DNA from: an uncultured Bacteroidales bacterium
GTDB taxonomy: Bacteria > Bacteroidota > Bacteroidia > Bacteroidales > UBA932
NCBI GenBank assembly: GCA_900320185.1
Contig: ONRD01000025.1
Location: 1 to 34,374 of the forward strand
Direction of reading: 5' to 3'
Length of the DNA stretch: 34,374 bases
In this document: one piece after another, positions 2,596-28,546 of the stretch
Numbering within the stretch: the first letter of the stretch is position 1
How the letters are laid out: each line of letters begins with the position of its first letter
Notes under the pieces: model-generated
Told to the model about the DNA's origin: nothing
Seen by the model: the letters and a program-made list of their open reading frames with translations, nothing else
Databases searched by the model: none
Made by a program: the position numbers and the translations under genes

Positions 2596-4278
2596 ATGGA
2601 TGTATCGGCAATAATCACATCTTTGCTGACGCTTCTCTCGGGAATAGGAGTATTCCTGATTGCGTGTCAGATGATGAGCTCGAACCTGGAAGCGGCGAGC
2701 TCCGAAAGGCTTAAAAAACTGTTTTCAAAAGCTTCCGACAACAAACTCCTGGGAGTCGGCATCGGTGCCCTCGGCACTGCCGCCATACAGAGTTCCGGCG
2801 CCACGACGGTCATGACGATCGGCTTCGTCAATGCCGGGATCATTTCTCTCTCCCAGGCCGCCACCATCATCTACGGTGCCAACATAGGTACCACAGTGAC
2901 GGCCCAGATAGTCGCTCTGGGCCTGTCCGGAGGCAGTTCCGTCTCCACCAGCGTGATATTCTCCGCCCTCGCGGGACTCGGAGCCTTCATGGGCATATTC
3001 GCAAAGAAAAGCGGCCCGCGTACCCTTGGCGGCATCCTTGCGGGCTTCGGCCTCCTGTTCGTGGGGCTTGAGCTCATGAGCGGCTCAATGGAAAGCTTTG
3101 CTGCACTCCCCGGAGTCAGGACCTTCCTTTCCGGGATAGGGAATCCTTTGCTCCTGGTCCTGCTCGGAGCCGTCCTGACGGCGATCATCCAGAGTTCGTC
3201 GGTCATGACCTCCATCGCGCTCACCATGGTCGTCACCGGACTGATCGGCATCGACCAGGGCATCTATCTCACCCTCGGGTCCAACATCGGCTCGTGCGTC
3301 GTCGCGCTCATAGCCGGCCTCACCAGCGGTACCAATGCCAGGCGGACCGCGTTGATCCACCTGCTGTTCAACTGCTCCGGCGTTGCCGTCTTCATGCTGG
3401 CGGCCCTCGGGCTCGGTGCCTTCGGCTTATCGTACGGCGACATCTTTGAAATGGCTTTCCCGGCTGCCCCTCAGCTGCAGCTGGCCATGTTCCACACCTT
3501 CTTCAACATCGTGACCGTGGCCATCATGCTGCCTTTGACGGGAGCACTGGTCGCGCTGGTCAGGAAGATGATACCGGAAAGGCATGTAGTGCAGGACTCG
3601 GAATTCAGTCTGCAGTTCGTCGATGACAACATGCTCCGTACGCCGCCCCTTGCCGTGTCGCAAGTCAAGCGGGAGATACTCCGCATGGCGGACCTTGCCA
3701 TAGGGAACGTCGACCGCAGCATAGAGATGGCCACGGACCTTGATTTCACCGCCAAAAACATGTTCGAGAGGGATGAGCGGGAGTTGAATTTCATAAACCG
3801 CGAGCTTATCGCCTACGTAGTCCGCCTGAACGGGAGGAGCGGCCTCGGGGAGAAGGATAGGGACTACCTTTCAGGCACTTACCGCAGCGTCAGGGATCTC
3901 GAGCGGATCGGCGACTATGCCGAGAACATAGTCGAATATGCCATGGCCCTCCAAGGCTCCGGCCAGCAGTTCTCAGACGACGCGAAATACGAAATCAGCC
4001 AGCTGAAGACCCTTCTGCACCGTTTGTTCTCACTGGCCATGGACGCTTACCGCAATGAGGACCTCGCCTCCCTGGACAGGGCCAACGAGGTCGAGGAGGA
4101 AATCGACGACTACACCAGAAGGATGGAAGAAGGCCATATCGCCCGGATGGAAAAGGGAATATGCACTCCTTCAGTAGGGGCGCAGTACCTTGAACTGTCT
4201 TCCAATGCCGAGCGCATAGCCGACCACATGATAAACGTAGCCAAGACAATCAAGACACTTAACCATCAAAATATATAA
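2596..4278 (+). CDS. Na+/phosphate cotransporter (NptA family) with C-terminal PhoU-like domain
   Basis: 560 residues, the usual length for bacterial Na/Pi cotransporters (SLC34-like) with a PhoU tail. The inverted-repeat core carries two QSS signatures: QSSGATTVMT at about residue 65 and QSSSVMTSIA at about 200, each followed by a helix. GANIGTTVTAQI and GSNIGSCVVAL are the matching second motifs. Residues from about 345 to 560 are charged helices (RDLERIGDYAENI, SSNAERIADHMINV), typical of PhoU-like repeats. It imports phosphate with sodium at the inner membrane. The stop TAA overlaps the ATG of the PepSY-like lipoprotein by one base, implying coupled translation. A second paralogue at 25957 has an extra DNA-binding domain; this one does not. 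Confidence 0.93.
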   Translation: MDVSAIITSLLTLLSGIGVFLIACQMMSSNLEAASSERLKKLFSKASDNKLLGVGIGALGTAAIQSSGATTVMTIGFVNAGIISLSQAATIIYGANIGTTVTAQIVALGLSGGSSVSTSVIFSALAGLGAFMGIFAKKSGPRTLGGILAGFGLLFVGLELMSGSMESFAALPGVRTFLSGIGNPLLLVLLGAVLTAIIQSSSVMTSIALTMVVTGLIGIDQGIYLTLGSNIGSCVVALIAGLTSGTNARRTALIHLLFNCSGVAVFMLAALGLGAFGLSYGDIFEMAFPAAPQLQLAMFHTFFNIVTVAIMLPLTGALVALVRKMIPERHVVQDSEFSLQFVDDNMLRTPPLAVSQVKREILRMADLAIGNVDRSIEMATDLDFTAKNMFERDERELNFINRELIAYVVRLNGRSGLGEKDRDYLSGTYRSVRDLERIGDYAENIVEYAMALQGSGQQFSDDAKYEISQLKTLLHRLFSLAMDAYRNEDLASLDRANEVEEEIDDYTRRMEEGHIARMEKGICTPSVGAQYLELSSNAERIADHMINVAKTIKTLNHQNI

Positions 4279-4736
4279 TGATCATGTCAACATCAACCAA
4301 TGTGAAGGTGGCCGTGGCCACCATGCTCGTACTCGCCTGCGCGAGTCTGGTTTCATGCAGGAATGAAACCGTCATTACAGCAGGGCAGCTTCCCGAAGCG
4401 GCCCAGAATTTCCTCAGGGAGTACTTCCCCGAGTCCCCGGTATCCTATGTCAAGAAAGAGAAGGAACTGAAGGGATCCACTTACGAAGCCGTGCTTCAGG
4501 ACGGTACCGAAATCGACTTTGATTCAAAGGGGGAGTGGGACAATGTGGATTGCAAGTCCGCAACCGTGCCCGCTGCCATCGTCCCTTCCGCGGTCGCCGG
4601 ACATGTCCAGGCCAACTTCCCGGGCCAGTCCATCTCCAAGATCGACAGGGAGCATTACGGCTTCGAAGTCGAGCTGGCCGGCGGACTGGAACTCAGGTTT
4701 GACAAGGACGGCAAGTTCGTAAGGATCGACGACTGA
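4278..4736 (+). CDS. PepSY-like periplasmic lipoprotein
   Basis: 152 residues. Lys10, a hydrophobic stretch, then LVSC gives a lipobox with lipidation at Cys27. The mature part is a tandem of two PepSY-like units: LPEAAQNFLREYFPESPVSYVKKE...DGTEIDFDSKGEWDNV, and VPSAVAGHVQANFPGQSISKIDRE...GLELRFDKDGKFVRI. This matches the small Bacteroidetes PepSY-like family (PF11396-type). Function is not established; these proteins may bind ligands or inhibit envelope proteases. The start is chosen because ATG 4278 overlaps the transporter stop (TAATG); ATG 4284 is an alternative. The coupling suggests a role linked to phosphate uptake, which is inference. Confidence 0.85.
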   Translation: MIMSTSTNVKVAVATMLVLACASLVSCRNETVITAGQLPEAAQNFLREYFPESPVSYVKKEKELKGSTYEAVLQDGTEIDFDSKGEWDNVDCKSATVPAAIVPSAVAGHVQANFPGQSISKIDREHYGFEVELAGGLELRFDKDGKFVRIDD

Positions 4737-20547: not shown

Positions 20548-22185
20548 TTATTTCTGGAATATTCCCGGATATTCGTGTATGAACCAGACGGGGGTGCAGC
20601 TCCATGCGTGGCACGCGCTGTTGAGGGGAGTGAACCCGTAGGGGGAGTACATGTCGTCTTCGGGGTCGTAGGCCTCCCAGAACGTGTCCGCTCCCTTCTT
20701 GACCATCCCCCCCCAGTAGTCCTCCATCGTCCGGCGCGCCTCGGTCTCCATGCCGCAGCGGAGCATGGCGTACAGCAGGTAGTGCATGGCGTAAGGCGTT
20801 CCCGGCATGACGCACCCTTCATGATCCAGGGCTGTCCTGATAGCCTTCGCCCCTTCGGCAGGGCTCAGGACCGATGCGATTGAAAGCCACGACTGGCTCA
20901 TGATGCTGACCTGTTTCCCGGGCCCGCTGAGGACGAGTCCCGACTTCTTGTCATACAAGTATTTCCTGGCCGCCCTTGTCATCTTCTTGATGAGGGCTGG
21001 ATATTCATGGACTTCATTTTCCCGGCCCAGCTTCCTTGCGAGCTCGTAGGTTTTCTGGAGGGCGAAGACCATCACTCCCTGCATCGATGCCGAGACGTCC
21101 AGTCCGGCACGGTGGTCGATGAAAAGCCATGACGGTTTCTTCGCAACGTCGAACAGGCCGTCTTCACCGACGAAGGACAATCCCTCCGCTATCTGGACTT
21201 TGGCGACCGGGAACAGGTCCTCGGCCGTCTCGCGGTCGCCTGTGTCGTCGAGGTAGTCCAGCAGGGCGACGTTCCAAAGGAGGGCGTAAGGAGTTATGTA
21301 GGTGCCGTATTGCGGGTGGGGGACAGGGTCCTCGATGATGTCCGCGAACAGTACCCCGTCTTCACGGGCTAGTGCGGCGAAGAGGTAGAGGCAGCGTTTG
21401 GTGAGGGCGAAGTTCTTGAAGGAATGCTTGTTGGCCAGGGCTTCAAGGTACATGTCCCCGATCCACAGGCGCTGGTCGCGCTTGGGACCGTCCTCATAGA
21501 CGGTCTGCATGCATTCGCGGAGGGTCTCCACCCCGACGTCATTGATCCTGCGGATCAGATCGGGGCAGTCCTGCTCCAGGCTGGTCTTTACTTCGCCGGC
21601 TGTGCTCTGTGCAGTGAAGCGCACCCCGTCTATCGCGAATGAATATCCGGCCCCGGGCCATCCCAGCATCTCTATCTTTACATAGCGGAACGCTATCCTG
21701 CGGGGAATCCTCACCCATTCGTCGAGCCTGGTGAGGGTGATGGTCTCATCCTGCATCCACGCTCTTCCGAGCCTGTCTTTGCTCCAAGGGTCGAAGGGGG
21801 TGTTGAGTTCGGCAGGCATCTCGGCGAAGGTCAGCTTGAACCGGACCGGGGCGTCCATGCAGTTAGAGAGAGTCTTCGTGTGGAACTGGAAATACCCCAC
21901 GAGATGCTTCCCGAAATCCAGGGTTACTGAGCCGACGTCCTTGAAGTTCTTCCCGTAAAGGGCTTCGGGGGTTCCTTCCTCTTCGAATCTCCACCCTTGG
22001 AAGGAGCCTGCGTCCTGTACGGTCCTGACTGTAGCTACCGGGGCGGCTTCGGTGTAGTTGAGCGCAGGCTTGGCCTCTTCCGCCTTCTTGAGCCAGCTTT
22101 CGCGCAGGCCTTCGTAAGGGTCCTGGGCAAAGGTCACTGCCGCAACGAACATTGCGGCAGCCGAAAGTTTCAGTTTCAGACCCAT
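20548..22185 (-). CDS. GH78-like (alpha-L-rhamnosidase-related) exported hydrolase
   Basis: 545 residues with a signal peptide (MGLKLKLSAAAMFVAAVTFA, then Q). A beta-sandwich N-terminal region (about 50-195, with TLDFGKHLVGYFQFH and RYVKIEMLGWPG) precedes an (alpha/alpha)6-type domain. The motif EDGPKRDQRLWIGDM at 231-245 corresponds to the acidic catalytic region of GH78, and the C-terminal SACHAWSCTPVWFIHEYP is also typical. It is shorter than most GH78 enzymes. It should act on a plant-type glycan in the periplasm, but the substrate sugar is not certain. It ends the minus-strand carbohydrate cluster and is the last gene before the R1/R2 repeats. Confidence 0.78.
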   Translation of the reverse strand: MGLKLKLSAAAMFVAAVTFAQDPYEGLRESWLKKAEEAKPALNYTEAAPVATVRTVQDAGSFQGWRFEEEGTPEALYGKNFKDVGSVTLDFGKHLVGYFQFHTKTLSNCMDAPVRFKLTFAEMPAELNTPFDPWSKDRLGRAWMQDETITLTRLDEWVRIPRRIAFRYVKIEMLGWPGAGYSFAIDGVRFTAQSTAGEVKTSLEQDCPDLIRRINDVGVETLRECMQTVYEDGPKRDQRLWIGDMYLEALANKHSFKNFALTKRCLYLFAALAREDGVLFADIIEDPVPHPQYGTYITPYALLWNVALLDYLDDTGDRETAEDLFPVAKVQIAEGLSFVGEDGLFDVAKKPSWLFIDHRAGLDVSASMQGVMVFALQKTYELARKLGRENEVHEYPALIKKMTRAARKYLYDKKSGLVLSGPGKQVSIMSQSWLSIASVLSPAEGAKAIRTALDHEGCVMPGTPYAMHYLLYAMLRCGMETEARRTMEDYWGGMVKKGADTFWEAYDPEDDMYSPYGFTPLNSACHAWSCTPVWFIHEYPGIFQK

Positions 22186-22267
22186 CTCTAGAGTTGCCTT
22201 GTTTTATTAATTGATTGTCAATATGTGCAACATAAAAGTTCCTTATGCTAACATTTTTGTTAACACA

Positions 22268-23137
22268 TTAAATCTCCCCAAAATTGCGGGATGCGAAGGG
22301 GAGTGCGTCGCGAAGGGCGAGGTGCCAGTATTCCCAGTTGTGGACTCCGTTGTGCACCCTCAGTTCGCTCTTCACCTTTGCGTTGCGCATCTTGACGTGG
22401 AGGCCTACGGAGAGTTCCATCAGGTAGTCGTCGTCGCCGCAGTCGAAGAACCATTTGACAGTCCTCAGCCTGGCGAGCGTCTCTTCGTCTGCATTGTCGA
22501 TGAACTTCAGTGCAGAATGGTCGGCGACCGACTTGCTCACGATGTGAAGTTTGTCGTCAGGTTCCTCTTCGAGTTTGACACCTCTCATGTCGTTGTCGAG
22601 CCATGCGCTCATCGCGTAGCAGCTCGAGAACATGTCGGGATGGCGCTGGCAGTAGACGGTGCTGCCGCCTCCGCCCATGGACAGGCCCATTACGGCCCTG
22701 TGCGCCTTGTCGCCGATGCAGCGGTACTTGGACTCCACTGTCGGGATGAGTTCGTTGAAGAAGAAATCTTCATAGCTCCAGCCCGGCATGTTGAAGTAGC
22801 CGTTCCATTCGTGATGGACGTCCGGATGGCCTGCGTTGGGCATCACGATGACCATTTTCTTCGCTTCTCCCGAAGAGATCAGTTCGTCTGCGACGAGTTT
22901 CATCCTGCCGAGGTTCTCCCAGTCCTGCCATGTACCGTAGAGCCCGTGCAGCAGGTAGACTACGGGATATTTGGCGTCGGACTTGTCGAATCCGTCGGGG
23001 AGATAGACGTTGATTTTCACGGTAGCTCCGAGAATCTTGCTGCTGAGGCTGTCGGCGACAAGCTTGCCGGCAAATGCCTGTGAAGCGCCCAGCACAAGAA
23101 GCAGGAGCGCGATAACTGTTCTTTTCATGATATTCAT
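22268..23137 (-). CDS. Secreted CE1-like esterase (esterase D/feruloyl esterase type)
   Basis: 289 residues; ATG 23128 is an equally good start. Signal peptide MKRTVIALLLLVLGASQAFA. The alpha/beta hydrolase features are visible: VYLLHGLYGT (oxyanion strand), nucleophile Ser153 in GLSMGGGGS, an acidic residue in DCGDDDYL at 232-237 and His266 in GVHNWEYW. This pattern is the esterase D/XynZ group, which often removes feruloyl or acetyl esters from plant glycans or acts on mycolyl-like esters. In this cluster, deacylation of a side-chain-bearing polysaccharide before GH attack is likely. It lies between the GH88-DUF2264 fusion (165 bp upstream) and the GH78-like gene. Confidence 0.84.
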   Translation of the reverse strand: MNIMKRTVIALLLLVLGASQAFAGKLVADSLSSKILGATVKINVYLPDGFDKSDAKYPVVYLLHGLYGTWQDWENLGRMKLVADELISSGEAKKMVIVMPNAGHPDVHHEWNGYFNMPGWSYEDFFFNELIPTVESKYRCIGDKAHRAVMGLSMGGGGSTVYCQRHPDMFSSCYAMSAWLDNDMRGVKLEEEPDDKLHIVSKSVADHSALKFIDNADEETLARLRTVKWFFDCGDDDYLMELSVGLHVKMRNAKVKSELRVHNGVHNWEYWHLALRDALPFASRNFGEI

Positions 23138-23258
23138 TGTTTTATGTTAGTTCATTCCTTGTTGGCCTTTGACTTCCGGCGACAGCCGCGCGGCCTGTCT
23201 GCCGTGTTTTACGTCCTGCATGGACTGACGTCGGGCACCGGACCGTGCCCTTCCGGGG

Positions 23259-23334
23259 CAAGGGTCAGATGCAGAGGTTCTCGTCGACGTCCACGACAAG
23301 GGTCAGATGCAGTGGTCGGCGCCGACGTCCACTC
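23259..23334. repeat. Two 38-bp tandem repeats that include the 3' end of a gene
   Basis: Copies start at 23259 and 23297. The right copy contains the last codons and stop of the GH88-DUF2264 gene (VDVGADHCI-stop); the left copy is a diverged duplicate that would read VDVDENLCI-stop. The period is not a multiple of three, so it lies outside the reading frame. Confidence 0.7.
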
Positions 23335-25642
23335 CGTTCCATGCCTTGCGCGACGTCCAGTCACGTGCCGGGGCACTCCAGAACGGGTCGTCGGCGGGAA
23401 GCCCGAGCGGCAGGAAAGCAGCACAGCAGAGGTAGAGGCTGCCGGTGTTGATGTAGGTCTCTCCCATCCTGGACTGACGGCCGGCGTAGCCGACGCGCAG
23501 CCAACCGTCAGGGTCGAAGGTCCCGGGGGCCGCCAGCTGCCTTTCGATCACTGCAGTGAGGGCGCAACGCACCTGTGCGGGACTCAGGTCTTCGGGAAGT
23601 ATGTGAAGCAGGGCGGCATCGGCCAGGGCGTGGAAGGAGCCGAACCTGTAGGTGATCGACCGTCCGATGACCGGGTAGGTCCCTTCCGGGGATATCATCC
23701 TTTCCAGTTCTGCTGCGAACCGTGAGTGCCTCTTCGCCTGGACCTCCAGGAAGCCTCCGTCGTCGATTCCGTGCTTCCTCATTATGCAGAGGACTTCGGT
23801 CAGCATCGGGTGGATGACCAGGCTGTTGTAGTAGTCCAGGTGCATGTCGTTCCCGTCGCCGTACCAGCCGTCTCCCTTGTACCAGTTGTCGCGGAAGCGC
23901 TTCACGCCGTAAAGGAGCCTTTCGGGATCATATTCCCCGGCGAACTCCAGGATGGCGGCTTCGACGGTCGAGGCGAACAGGAGCCAGTTGCTTTCGGGTG
24001 CCTTGATCTCGCGGGAGCGTTTCCACTCCTTGATGAACCTGTCCCTGGTCTTCCTGTCAAGCTTTTTCCAGATGGAGGGAGCCCTGAGGAGCCCTTCCGC
24101 GAGGAAGGCCGCGTCCACCAGCGGCTGGCCCCCATGTTCGCCGCCGAAAACCAGATAGTCGGGGGAGGAGGGGTCTACGGCGTTCTTCAACCCTTTCACC
24201 GTCAGGTCGATGAAGCGTGCCCTGAGGCGCCCCTCCTCGGTGTCGTCGGCTCCAAGTTCCAGCCAGGGGGCTATACCGCAGACAGTACGCCCAACCGCTT
24301 CAAGGTAGGAGACGCTTCTGTGGTAAGGATTGGAGTTGAGGGTTTCGTAGGGCATGTTCTTCTTCAGCGTCCCCGCGGCCAGGTTCTCGATGACGGGCGA
24401 GGCGGTCTTGACCAGCGCATCCACCCAGGCCTTCCTGTCGGCCGCGCCGTCACTGCGTTCCAGAAGTTTCTTCAGCCTTATGAGCGCTTCAAGGTAGTAG
24501 TAGTCGCAGTAGGTGAGCGGAACGTCGACTTCCGCCTTGGCGGGGAAATGGCCGACTCCATGCTTGATTATGAAGCCTCCCTGTTCTCCGGGAGCGGCCA
24601 GGTACTCCGGTGAACTCAGGGTGCGGAGCTGCCGGATTGCGAGGTCCAGCCAGGCGGCCGATTCATTCCCGGGATCGAGCTGGCTCAGTTCGATGAAGGC
24701 TGACGCCATGATAGCCGCGGCTGATGCATCCCTGAGGGCGGTCCCGGGAGCGCCAGGGGCATTGAAATCCCAGCAAGGGACCTTGTCCTCCGGGAGGTTG
24801 GGGTGGTCCTTTATGAAGCGCCCGATCTTCCTTGCCTGCTCGAGGAAGTTCCTGTCAAGGGTCTCGCGGTACATCATGGTGTAGCCGTAGAGCCCCCAGG
24901 CCTGGCCGCGCGCCCATGCGCTGTCGTCCGAATATCCCTGCGCCGTGTTCTTGGCATGCGGCTGCCCTGTCGCAGGGTCGTAGGAGACCACGTGCCAGGT
25001 GGAGTTGTCCGCCCGGAAATGGTTCTTTATGGTGGTGTAGGCATGTGTGATGGCCGCCAGTTCGTAGCCTCGCTCCGAGAAAGTCTGTGCGCAGAAGCAG
25101 AGCATTTCCAGGTTCATCATGTTGTCGATGATGACGGGATACTTCCACCGGCTGTTCTCGTTCCATGACTTCATCACGCCGATCTTGTGGTTCCATCTGG
25201 TCATTAGGCTGTCCGTGCCTTCGTGGATGACTTCCAGGTAGTGGGGATCACCGGTGATCCTGTAGCCCTGGCCGAAGCTGGACATGAGCATGAAGCCGAG
25301 GTCGTGGGTGTTGGTAAGCTTCTTCGCCGGTTCGACCCTGCGGGTGTACTCTTTCGCATATTCAAGGAACTTCTCCTGCCCGGTCTGTTCGTACAGCATC
25401 CAAAGCACGCCGGGGAAGAATCCCGACACCCATCCCGAATATGTGGTCAGTTTAAGTTCTCCGTCTTCCCAGGTCCTGGGCAGCGCCGTCGGGTTCCCCA
25501 GCATGCTTTCAGCCAGGATTTCGGACTGTCCGGCGGCCCTTGTGATGCCGCGCTCGATCATTGATTCGAGGGATTCCTGGGCCATAAGGCAGGCCGTTGC
25601 GAGCAGGATGCCGCTGATAGCGGCGGCTATTCTTTTGTTCAT
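23303..25642 (-). CDS. Exported GH88 (unsaturated glucuronyl hydrolase)-DUF2264 fusion
   Basis: 779 residues with a signal peptide (MNKRIAAAISGILLATACLMA). Residues about 25-390 are a GH88/GH105-type (alpha/alpha)6 barrel. Asp114 (NTHDLGFM) and Asp173 (IIDNMMNLEML) are in the catalytic positions, and SDDSAWARGQAWGLYGYTMMY is a strong signature. Residues about 405-779 are DUF2264-like (NPYHRSVSYLEAVGRTVCGIAPWLELG, GGEHGGQPLVDAAFLAEGLLR, GWYGDGNDMHLDYYNSLVIHPML). GH88 removes unsaturated uronic acids left by lyases; DUF2264 is also an (alpha/alpha)6-like putative glycan enzyme. The two are normally separate proteins. It is first in the three-gene cluster. Confidence 0.87.
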   Translation of the reverse strand: MNKRIAAAISGILLATACLMAQESLESMIERGITRAAGQSEILAESMLGNPTALPRTWEDGELKLTTYSGWVSGFFPGVLWMLYEQTGQEKFLEYAKEYTRRVEPAKKLTNTHDLGFMLMSSFGQGYRITGDPHYLEVIHEGTDSLMTRWNHKIGVMKSWNENSRWKYPVIIDNMMNLEMLCFCAQTFSERGYELAAITHAYTTIKNHFRADNSTWHVVSYDPATGQPHAKNTAQGYSDDSAWARGQAWGLYGYTMMYRETLDRNFLEQARKIGRFIKDHPNLPEDKVPCWDFNAPGAPGTALRDASAAAIMASAFIELSQLDPGNESAAWLDLAIRQLRTLSSPEYLAAPGEQGGFIIKHGVGHFPAKAEVDVPLTYCDYYYLEALIRLKKLLERSDGAADRKAWVDALVKTASPVIENLAAGTLKKNMPYETLNSNPYHRSVSYLEAVGRTVCGIAPWLELGADDTEEGRLRARFIDLTVKGLKNAVDPSSPDYLVFGGEHGGQPLVDAAFLAEGLLRAPSIWKKLDRKTRDRFIKEWKRSREIKAPESNWLLFASTVEAAILEFAGEYDPERLLYGVKRFRDNWYKGDGWYGDGNDMHLDYYNSLVIHPMLTEVLCIMRKHGIDDGGFLEVQAKRHSRFAAELERMISPEGTYPVIGRSITYRFGSFHALADAALLHILPEDLSPAQVRCALTAVIERQLAAPGTFDPDGWLRVGYAGRQSRMGETYINTGSLYLCCAAFLPLGLPADDPFWSAPARDWTSRKAWNGVDVGADHCI

Positions 25643-25803: not shown

Positions 25804-25908
25804 CTGCCGGTCACCGTCGAACGGCCTCCATTCCCTCAAATATAGTGTTTTTTAGTGAAAGGAAAGCATTTTGAGGGGCAAGCTCTTGCCTGAAAGACTG
25901 ATTTAGGC

Positions 25909-25916
25909 TATTTTTG
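25909..25916 (+). promoter_or_regulatory. -7 box of the Na/Pi-wHTH gene
   Basis: TATTTTTG fits TAnnTTTG. It ends 1 bp before ATG 25918, which therefore cannot be within the transcript's translated part; the start at 25957 is preferred. Confidence 0.6.
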
Positions 25917-25956
25917 CATGAGTGTTTTTCCGGACTGGAAAATTGGTTACATATCT

Positions 25957-27927
25957 ATGCTTATTGCCCTTAAACTACTAGGATCCATCGCCTTGCTCAT
26001 TTACGGCATGAAGGTGATGAGCGAAGCCCTCCAGAAGATGGCGGGTCCGCAGTTGCGCCACCTCCTGGGTGCCATGACAACCAACCGCTTTTCCGGAGTG
26101 GCTACCGGAGCCCTCGTGACGGTGGCGGTGCAGTCGTCGGCTGCTACGACGGTCATGACCGTGTCATTCGTGAATGCCGCCCTGCTCACCCTTGCACAGG
26201 CAATCTCCATCATCATGGGCGCCAACATAGGTACGACCATCAGCGCATGGATCATGTCTGCGGGGTTCTCCTTCAACATAGCGACCATGGTCTGGCCGGC
26301 GTTCCTTGTCGGAATCATCCTGATCCAGCTCGGCAAGCACCGCTATGTAGGCGATTTCCTTTTCGGACTTGCCTTCCTCCTTTTCGCCCTGGCGATGCTC
26401 AAGGAAGCCGGCGGCGAGATGGACCTGGCCGGCAACCAGAAGGTAGTCGATTTCTTCGCGAGCTTCAAGACAAACTACGGCACCATCCTGCTCTTCCTAC
26501 TCATAGGTTCCGTCCTGACTGCGATGGTCCAGAGTTCCGCGGCGCTGATGGCCATCACGATGGTGCTCTGCTCTACGGGAGCCATAACCATCTACCAGGG
26601 CATCGCACTGGTCATGGGTGAGAACATCGGTACCACCCTTACCGCCAACTTCGCTGCACTAGGAGCCAGCACCCAGGCCCGCCGGGCTGCACTTGCCCAC
26701 TTGGTATTCAATGTCTTCGGTGTCATCTGGGTCCTCATACTCTTTTTCCCCTTCGTCAGGATGGTCTGTTCTTTCGTCGGGCTTGACCCTTCGGCAGAAT
26801 CCCAGGACCCCACACGGCTCTCCTTTGCGCTGGCTGCCTTCCACACGTCTTTCAATGTGATCAACACGGCCATCCTCATATGGTTCATTCCTCAGATCGA
26901 GAAGATAGTCTGCGGCCTCATCCAGCCTAAGAAGAGCGACACGGAGGATGAATTCAGGCTCCAGTACATCCGCGCCGGTATCATGAAGACCCCGGAAATC
27001 TCCGTCCTCCAGGCGCAGAAAGAAATAGTCGTGTTCGGAGAGCGGATGGAGAAGATGTATTCCCTCCTGAAGGAACTCTTCTATGCCAAGGATGACGAGT
27101 CGTTCCAGAAACTGTTCGACAGGATCCAGCATTTCGAGGAGATGAGCGACAAGATGGAGAACGAGATCGGCCGTTACCTCGGTGAGGTCGCGGATTCGCA
27201 TCTTTCGGACGAGACCAAGCTGAAGATACGCTCGATGCTGCGCCAGATCGGCGAGCTGGAGAGTATCGGAGACAGTTTCTTCAACCTGGCCCGTATCCTA
27301 AGGCGCGGGCGGGAGTACAAGATTGAATATACCCCCGAACAGGTCGAGGGCGGAAAGGAAATGTACTCCTTGGTGTCGGAGGCTCTCCATCAGATGAACG
27401 TGGTCCTTTCGGTAAGGAAGGAAGAAGCCCGTCTCTCAGTCTCCGAAGGGATTGAGTCCCGGATCAACGAGTGCCGCAACATGTGGCGCAGGCGCAACGT
27501 CGAGAACGTGGACAACCATGTCTACGGCTATGACAACGGGACCGTGTTCATGGACCTCATCAATGAGTGCGAAAAGACCGGAGACTACATAATCAATGTT
27601 GTCGAGGCTCGTCTCGGAGCTCCCAGGAACGGTGTCCGCGTGAGGGGGATCCAGCTGGATTCCGATGCGAGGACCGTTTCCGTGGACAATTCGCCCGTCC
27701 AGTTCACCAGGGTCGAGTTCGACCTGCTGAAGCTCCTGCTGGAAAATCCCGGAAAGGTTTTCTCCGGAGAGGAACTCCTGCAGTCAGTGAAGTTTGACGA
27801 CGAGTCTGCTACCGTCCGTTCGGTAGATGCCGCCATCGGCAGGATACGCCGCAAGATCGGGCAATATGCCTCATTGCTGGTGACCCGCCCTGATTCCGGC
27901 TACTGCTGCGTGGAGGACCAGGAATAA
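25957..27927 (+). CDS. Na+/phosphate cotransporter-PhoU-winged-helix fusion (candidate membrane-bound regulator)
   Basis: 656 residues from ATG 25957; a reading from 25918 is 13 residues longer but starts next to the promoter box. The NptA core has QSSAATTVMTVSFVNA and QSSAALMAITMV with GANIGTTISAW and GENIGTTLTANF. A PhoU-like helical part follows, up to about residue 560 (RQIGELESIGDSFFNLARI, NECEKTGDYIINVVEA). The last 95 residues (27641-27924) are an OmpR/PhoB-type DNA-binding domain. Its features are a beta-strand lead IQLDSDARTVSVDN, FTRVEFDLLKLLLENPGKVFSGEELL, the recognition helix VRSVDAAIGRIRRKIG, and the wing TRPDSGYCC. No receiver domain or stop separates them. It may sense phosphate flux and bind DNA from the membrane; this is inference. 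Transport itself is well supported. Confidence 0.9.
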   Translation: MLIALKLLGSIALLIYGMKVMSEALQKMAGPQLRHLLGAMTTNRFSGVATGALVTVAVQSSAATTVMTVSFVNAALLTLAQAISIIMGANIGTTISAWIMSAGFSFNIATMVWPAFLVGIILIQLGKHRYVGDFLFGLAFLLFALAMLKEAGGEMDLAGNQKVVDFFASFKTNYGTILLFLLIGSVLTAMVQSSAALMAITMVLCSTGAITIYQGIALVMGENIGTTLTANFAALGASTQARRAALAHLVFNVFGVIWVLILFFPFVRMVCSFVGLDPSAESQDPTRLSFALAAFHTSFNVINTAILIWFIPQIEKIVCGLIQPKKSDTEDEFRLQYIRAGIMKTPEISVLQAQKEIVVFGERMEKMYSLLKELFYAKDDESFQKLFDRIQHFEEMSDKMENEIGRYLGEVADSHLSDETKLKIRSMLRQIGELESIGDSFFNLARILRRGREYKIEYTPEQVEGGKEMYSLVSEALHQMNVVLSVRKEEARLSVSEGIESRINECRNMWRRRNVENVDNHVYGYDNGTVFMDLINECEKTGDYIINVVEARLGAPRNGVRVRGIQLDSDARTVSVDNSPVQFTRVEFDLLKLLLENPGKVFSGEELLQSVKFDDESATVRSVDAAIGRIRRKIGQYASLLVTRPDSGYCCVEDQE

Positions 27928-28415: not shown

Positions 28416-28422
28416 AGACTAT

Positions 28423-28546
28423 CCGTGCGATAGCCGATGGTCCCAAACCGTACGATCGTCAATGGTCCCATACCGCACGATGGTATATGGCCCATGCCGT
28501 ATGATGGTAGATAATCCCATGCCGTATGATGGTAGATAATCCCATG
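28423..28546. repeat. Five tandem 25-bp repeats (CCGTatGATgGT...CCCATG)
   Basis: Units begin at 28423, 28448, 28473, 28497 and 28522. The last two are identical and the first ones increasingly diverged, so the array grew by recent duplication at its right end. There are no spacers. It adjoins the inverted-repeat element. Confidence 0.85.

Follow-up and report, generated by a model that had tools for sequence, protein, structure and literature searches.

The window, by which we mean the whole 34,374-nucleotide stretch of Bacteroidales DNA analysed here, contains on its forward strand an open reading frame (ORF; positions 25957 to 27927) that encodes a protein of 656 aa in a single frame, open throughout; an alternative in-frame ATG at 25918 would give a product of 669 aa. 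Pfam matches, all above their curated cut-offs, place two Na_Pi_cotrans repeats, a PhoU domain and a Trans_reg_C domain in this order, so that, by Pfam and the structure model, the gene joins an NptA-type transporter and PhoU to an OmpR/PhoB winged helix. The transporter core (residues 1–325; 25957 to 26931) matches Na_Pi_cotrans (PF02690) over two stretches at 1.1e-53, scores 181.7 bits against a cut-off of 50 with the NCBIfam Na_Pi_symport model and matches the sequence of SLC34A2 in the PDB (9z64, 5.8e-16); sodium-dependent phosphate transport is predicted for it. The PhoU domain (residues 361–447; 27037 to 27297; 8.5e-08) lies inside a helical region of the model (residues 346–553). A short linker (residues 554–564; 27616 to 27648), placed from the model and from the fusion point relative to unfused relatives, leads from the last helix of the PhoU region to the winged helix (residues 565–651; 27649 to 27909), within which Trans_reg_C (PF00486) matches residues 579–650 at 1.4e-15, with 57.5 bits against a cut-off of 26.2. 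The best NCBIfam match of the tail (residues 558–650) is the Bacteroidetes PhoB model, at a score far under the whole-protein cut-off of that model, as expected since the receiver domain is absent. Indeed, no match to Response_reg, the receiver domain with its phospho-acceptor Asp, nor to HisKA or HATPase was found by Pfam in the fused protein.

A model of the full protein was built from 39 aligned rows (mean pLDDT 78, pTM 0.45), with low confidence in the first half of the transporter part. Its winged helix occupies approximately the residues given above, and a second model, of the tail alone, has an identical order of strands and helices. In Foldseek comparisons the domain resembled the PhoB effector domains 1gxq and 1gxp (TM-score by target 0.82–0.84), and the DNA-binding domains of PhoB, VicR, YycF and PhoP matched it at TM-scores by target of about 0.8–0.9. 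The recognition helix, located from the model and the alignment, spans residues 620–640 (27814 to 27876) and contains the sequence VDAAI. By Pfam and the structure model, one chain combines membrane segments with a DNA-binding domain and a transporter domain with a signalling output. The preliminary description of this DNA, made from its letters alone, had read an uninterrupted frame from NptA through PhoU into a winged helix; the open ORF and the Pfam matches bear this out, the family databases identify its tail as Trans_reg_C (Pfam) and as closest to the Bacteroidetes PhoB model (NCBIfam), and the modelled fold, matching 1gxq and 1gxp, agrees that the tail is a winged helix. Ahead of the gene, on the same strand, lies TATTTTTG (25909 to 25916), which we take to be a −7-like element of the Bacteroidetes type from the consensus TAnnTTTG, so short a motif being weak evidence.

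Elsewhere in the window, a second, ordinary Na/Pi cotransporter with PhoU (2596 to 4278, forward strand) is 30% identical to the fused protein and has no winged helix; a gene for a PepSY-like protein (4278 to 4736) follows it directly. Beside the fused gene, on the reverse strand (20548 to 25642), are carbohydrate-active genes with alpha-rhamnosidase-like and putative esterase products, along with a 779-aa protein combining GH88-like and DUF2264 domains. After the fused gene, at 28420 to 28545, short repeated words of the type atggtccca or ccgtatgatggta can be recognised by eye.

Distribution and origin of the fusion

The same architecture occurs in many relatives, at about 55–80% identity, and the fusion is found in gut and rumen Bacteroidales. 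Among 400 genus genomes sampled, no fewer than 59 had matches covering both the PhoU region and the winged helix (E ≤ 1e-30), a number counted by eye from the match listing and including two interrupted by a contig end; that the fusion is the oddity of a single species was rejected on this count. A sample of 393 genomes of the order held one full fusion outside the genus, in a member of another family (G467; E ≤ 1e-15; Pfam), a sample of 395 genomes of the phylum held none besides the window's (E ≤ 1e-22), and the fusion is present as well at a locus from a record titled Prevotellaceae (L109). Many full architectures were among the best 80 loci of the genome collection, which, with loci from related genomes, brought the number examined to 111. 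Leaving out the window's paralogue (L002) gave 110 rows, 48 fused and 62 unfused, comprising 102 different sequences. The unfused relatives examined stop after PhoU, at 552–576 aa.

Fusions were present in 14 of 81 genomes of the genus, one of the 14 having its copy cut by a contig end; G025, whose broken copy sits at the edge of a contig, was left out of this number. Ten of these 14 carry no other Trans_reg_C, and four also have a separate OmpR-type domain. Trans_reg_C was missing altogether from 34 of the 67 remaining genomes, showing that PhoB is often absent in this genus, whether or not a genome carries the fusion; such absences are provisional, as the genomes are mostly incomplete drafts. 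The lack of an OmpR-type DNA-binding domain in 34 of 81 genomes, many of them incomplete, is in itself a striking poverty. In the window's genome (92.8% complete) the fused protein contains the one Trans_reg_C found; two receiver domains occur in other ORFs, there is one weak HisKA, and the 28 candidates scored out of 37 included no PstB at 1e-60.

The likely source of the domain is visible next to some unfused genes. In three of the 62 unfused rows (L025, L029, L031) a full PhoB, with receiver and winged helix, and then a PhoR-like kinase directly follow nptA; the domains, the receiver of PhoB included, were checked in two of the three, and some other rows had little downstream DNA. In seven further congeners (L161–L166, L175) phoB and nptA lie head to head. 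When placed among PhoBs of the genus, the 33 rows of clade A make up a single clade by their fused winged helices (support 94/88), and the 14 rows of clade B a separate one (support 100/99); a single origin of both was not rejected (AU p = 0.48). An origin of the fusion partner as the PhoB DNA-binding domain of a neighbouring gene is well supported by these sequence comparisons.

Fused and unfused rows are intermixed in the transporter tree. With a single gain in clade A, the tree as built requires the domain to have been lost about 15 times; all three settings for collapsing weak branches returned 15 again, the collapse seemingly having no effect, and when well-supported branches alone are counted the fused label has to change at least 12 times over the whole tree. 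Losses on this scale indicate that the winged helix is dispensable. Remnants of it past the stop codons of unfused relatives were mostly not found. L017 and L073 end in EAR-IRRKLSPTAEAF, apparently the end of the recognition helix placed right after PhoU, an arrangement that resembles the outcome of an internal deletion within the domain and thus a footprint of loss.

The Pho box and the recognition helix

Alignment of the regions upstream of fused genes revealed a tandem repeat, GTTAAAATTCT GTTACAATTG. A scan with a matrix made from these sites located the same 11-bp repeat, within the genus, ahead of separate phoB genes and of divergent nptA genes; with a looser pattern it was found in 10 of 16 separate phoB promoters. 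In G050 and G052, where a separate PhoB is present, it also precedes the gene of a PHO4-family phosphate transporter. Because it is shared with these promoters, the repeat is called a Pho box here. A box was scored as GTTAA-N5-TGTTAM with at most one mismatch in the last 150 nt before the gene, a consensus not blind to the fused promoters, as the earlier scan matrix had been built from them. By this rule it was present in 22 of 48 fused rows and in none of 56 unfused rows (the 62 minus the three operon rows and minus L019, L060 and L080, which have no usable upstream DNA, the contig of L019 starting inside the gene); shuffled upstream regions satisfied the rule in 22 of 5400 cases. Counting different sequences only, the figures were 21 of 47 and 0 of 49. 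The three nptA-phoB-phoR operon rows, counted apart, had no box at one mismatch or fewer.

Presence of the box follows the recognition helix. It precedes 22 of the 26 fused genes whose helix is PhoB-like and reads VDVNI (the exceptions being L004, L024, L037 and L044) and none of the 22 others (p = 5.7e-10); when each of 23 clusters counts once, six of eight VDVNI clusters have it against 0 of 15 (p = 2.8e-4), the rows being related, so that both p-values overstate independence. The VDVNI criterion had been picked after inspection of this first data set. In a hold-out set with the rule fixed beforehand, the box was present in 9/9 VDVNI rows, 0/19 other fused rows and 0/8 unfused rows (p = 1.4e-7, VDVNI against other fused). 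The set comprised 60 newly fetched regions and three earlier ones, 63 in total, of which 25 were dropped because they duplicated earlier rows or one another; two of the remaining 38, one of them VDVNI, had too little upstream DNA. The helix is thus the part that covaries with the box, in agreement with the DNA contacts of the OmpR/PhoB class, which are made by recognition helix and wing (PMC3960148). Helix and operator would then evolve together, the old box being gone where the helix has changed.

Several other arrangements were seen. One hold-out row classed as other (L278; helix RTIDVNI) has a box with two mismatches at the usual spacing. Two fused copies each are present in G003, G057 and G064: in the first two genomes one copy has both VDVNI and the box and the other copy neither, while in G064 one copy has VDVNI but no box and the other lacks both. 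In a branch of clade B (L020, L022, L090, L096, L098, L303, L304, L310) the helix reads VDxxI[RK][DE]IR, with Asp or Glu replacing Arg at residue 629, and a word TGTTGATAAA (AGTTGATAAA in L096) stands upstream at about the usual position of the Pho box; L309 shares the helix and lacks the word. A joint switch of helix and operator is possible in this branch, whose rows are close relatives. The fusion of the other family (L160, from G467) has no GTTAA box upstream; by eye, TTGTAACCGAA TTGTAGCCGTT resembles another 11-bp tandem repeat.

The position of the box is nearly constant. Twenty of the 22 box-bearing rows have it 38 nt upstream of a −7-like element, L008 has it at 37 nt and L095 at 39 nt, and the hold-out set gives 37–39 nt; the −7 element itself starts some 15 to 30 nt ahead of the ATG in box-bearing rows. 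Two of the three nptA-phoB-phoR operons show exactly 38 nt with a looser box, the third being boxless; separate phoB promoters do not show the 38-nt spacing, and six of them show 57 nt. Box and spacing of 37–39 nt persist although the intervening sequence changes. A spacing near-fixed in fused and operon genes indicates that the site is fixed to the promoter and not to the start codon, as would be the case for a regulator site, and a position upstream of the core promoter suggests activation.

Genome-wide counts gave 15 sites against 9 in the control for the long motif (at most three mismatches, 18 genomes) and 30 sites against 42 for the reversed control with the short exact motif (40 genomes). 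Most sites away from promoters are therefore due to chance, since the short motif does not outnumber its control, and a larger regulon was rejected on these counts. The fused genomes contain ten exact sites, four of which have a −7-like element at 37–39 nt, and each of these four precedes the fused gene. The fused genomes scanned showed no other exact box so spaced, the short motif ending in TGTTAC and so missing the clade-B boxes, which end in TGTTAA, as well as weaker sites. At this level of exact sites, the fused gene itself is the sole target seen. The co-occurrence of helix and box, together with the lack of a correctly spaced exact box elsewhere in these genomes, makes it probable that the protein is a direct regulator of its own gene. 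In G028 an exact second long-motif box (G028:C55:25619; L117, L219) overlaps the end of a permease-like ORF at 2.85 kb upstream of the fused gene and has no −7-like element at the usual distance.

The window copy

The copy in the window departs from this pattern. Residue 612 is Trp in 47 of 48 aligned fused rows and Lys in the window, the lone exception, and P613, G578, G646 and F651, the predominant residues at their positions, each shared by 41 to 44 of the 48 rows, are lost as well. Box scans found no Pho box at 25855 to 25870, where relatives have it. The frame of the winged helix is still open and the domain still recognised. Against the nearest relative (L003), dN/dS reaches 0.21 in the winged helix, compared with 0.10 in the PhoU region and 0.05 in the transporter core, all with dS near saturation. 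Across pairs of rows, the winged helix has dN/dS of 0.01–0.10 in nine pairs with the box in both rows, a tenth such pair being undefined, and of 0.03–0.45 in 14 other pairs, the window pair included. In simulations of neutral decay by point changes only, 129 of 4000 runs remained stop-free at half the L001/L003 synonymous distance and 756 of 4000 at 0.2 changes per site; such stop-free runs mean that the winged helix of the window may be in recent decay.

The loss of the Trp, the helix VDAAI and the absence of the box together imply that the switch of the window copy may be decaying or retargeted. To judge from these features, the copy is probably a late member of the family whose switch has been weakened, lost or retargeted. 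The preliminary description has to be amended in this light. The motifs of the winged helix, which it held to be all kept, include a near-invariant Trp and four other common residues that the window has lost. The one-protein transporter-regulator that it proposed as a bypass of the PhoU-PhoR-PhoB chain gains support at the level of the family, from the PhoB origin and the covariation of helix and box, but not from the window copy, which ranks with the least canonical members and has no box. It had also named, as a finding that would speak against it, homologues all ending before the winged helix; fused relatives proved abundant, though many others do lack the domain.

A model for the family, its rivals and its parallels

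The data presented above have led us to propose, as the likelier account, a family of self-regulating phosphate transporters derived from nptA-phoB-phoR, acting through box binding and a direct relay from PhoU, with the switch of the window weakened, lost or retargeted. In an ancestral operon of this type, the receiver of PhoB would have been lost and its DNA-binding domain joined to the PhoU tail of the transporter, a step well supported by the comparisons described. Where a member's recognition helix is intact, its membrane-held winged helix would bind the Pho box at its own promoter, as the co-occurrence of the two strongly supports, and from the position of the box this most likely activates the gene when phosphate is scarce. 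Transporter and PhoU would pass the transport state, or the occupancy by phosphate, straight to the DNA-binding domain, and so direct a relay would need neither kinase nor phosphotransfer; phosphate or transport as the driver of the switch is suggested by analogy. Many relatives would later have lost the domain, and the window copy, which keeps it without key residues and without the ancestral box, would probably have a switch weakened, lost or retargeted. The broadest form of the proposal, which we hold to be quite possible while stopping short of calling it probable, is that a two-component system collapsed to a one-protein switch working from the membrane, with the transporter as transcription factor of its own gene, transport or phosphate occupancy as the signal, and helix and operator coevolving. 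As the own gene is the only target found, such a protein could act from the membrane, its nascent chain tethering that gene there.

The winged helix might instead be a passenger, the relic of a PhoB swallowed by read-through, with no DNA-binding function in any member and only the transporter mattering. Repeated loss of the domain, its relaxed sequence in the window and other members, and the absence of the box from all 22 non-VDVNI members fit such a relic; the low dN/dS in the nine pairs where both rows are boxed, the persistence of box and spacing while the sequence between them changes, and the nine boxed VDVNI rows out of nine in the hold-out set do not, and we consider it unlikely. We give the same low probability to a reading in which a separate PhoB occupies the box, leaving the fused domain some other role, such as competition with PhoB or anchoring of the gene at the membrane. 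It draws on the four fused genomes of 14 with a separate OmpR-type domain and on the similar box at many separate phoB genes, yet the box is present in G003, G027 and G028 without any further Trans_reg_C (at 92, 78 and 87% completeness), and presence of the box tracks the helix of the fused protein itself.

Somewhat more improbable still is that the domain works only as a soluble factor, after proteolysis or from an internal start. A membrane-held factor has limited reach, and release would ease binding; however, all four correctly spaced exact boxes, among the ten exact sites in fused genomes, precede the fused gene, which a membrane-held factor would be able to reach during insertion of the nascent protein. 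An assembly chimera or annotation artefact, conceivable for a window from a draft genome of 49 contigs, is refuted by the identical junction in dozens of other assemblies and has next to no chance of being correct.

The systems nearest to this protein each have some features in common with it. It shares with NptA, the SLC34-type Na/Pi cotransporter with a PhoU tail, the two Na_Pi_cotrans repeats and PhoU, and adds a winged helix where the unfused relatives examined end. ToxR and CadC have a membrane part that is a short anchor with a periplasmic sensor, whereas the membrane part of the fused protein is a whole transporter. Like these two transmembrane transcription regulators, it is one membrane protein with a DNA-binding domain, which is C-terminal as in Rsp (PMC10269533); control of transcription while held in the membrane is predicted for it. 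PhoB, which in the PhoRB system of Bacteroides fragilis is described as binding the pst promoter (PMC3547664), has a DNA-binding domain of the same family, and in canonical relatives a tandem 11-bp box precedes the fused gene. Unlike PhoB, the fused protein has no receiver domain, hence no phosphorylation site, is joined to a transporter, and has no target found beyond its own gene. Transporter and signalling output are also combined in CbrA, a transporter domain fused to a histidine kinase output (PMC13022988), and in the ammonium transporter-histidine kinase fusion of Kuenenia (PMC5764959); in both of these the output is a histidine kinase, whereas here it is the DNA-binding domain itself. 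No description of a transporter joined to a DNA-binding domain was found in the open literature, subscription journals being mostly outside the search.

From sequence alone, fused genes are readily mistaken for plain Na/Pi symporters in annotation. If the proposal is true, they would encode a transporter acting as its own transcription factor and would represent a natural case of a two-component system cut to one component with the promoter site retained. One small system would then allow tests of the link by which PhoU signals transport to gene control, of the way in which a membrane-held factor gets to DNA, and of the joint change of operators and recognition helices.
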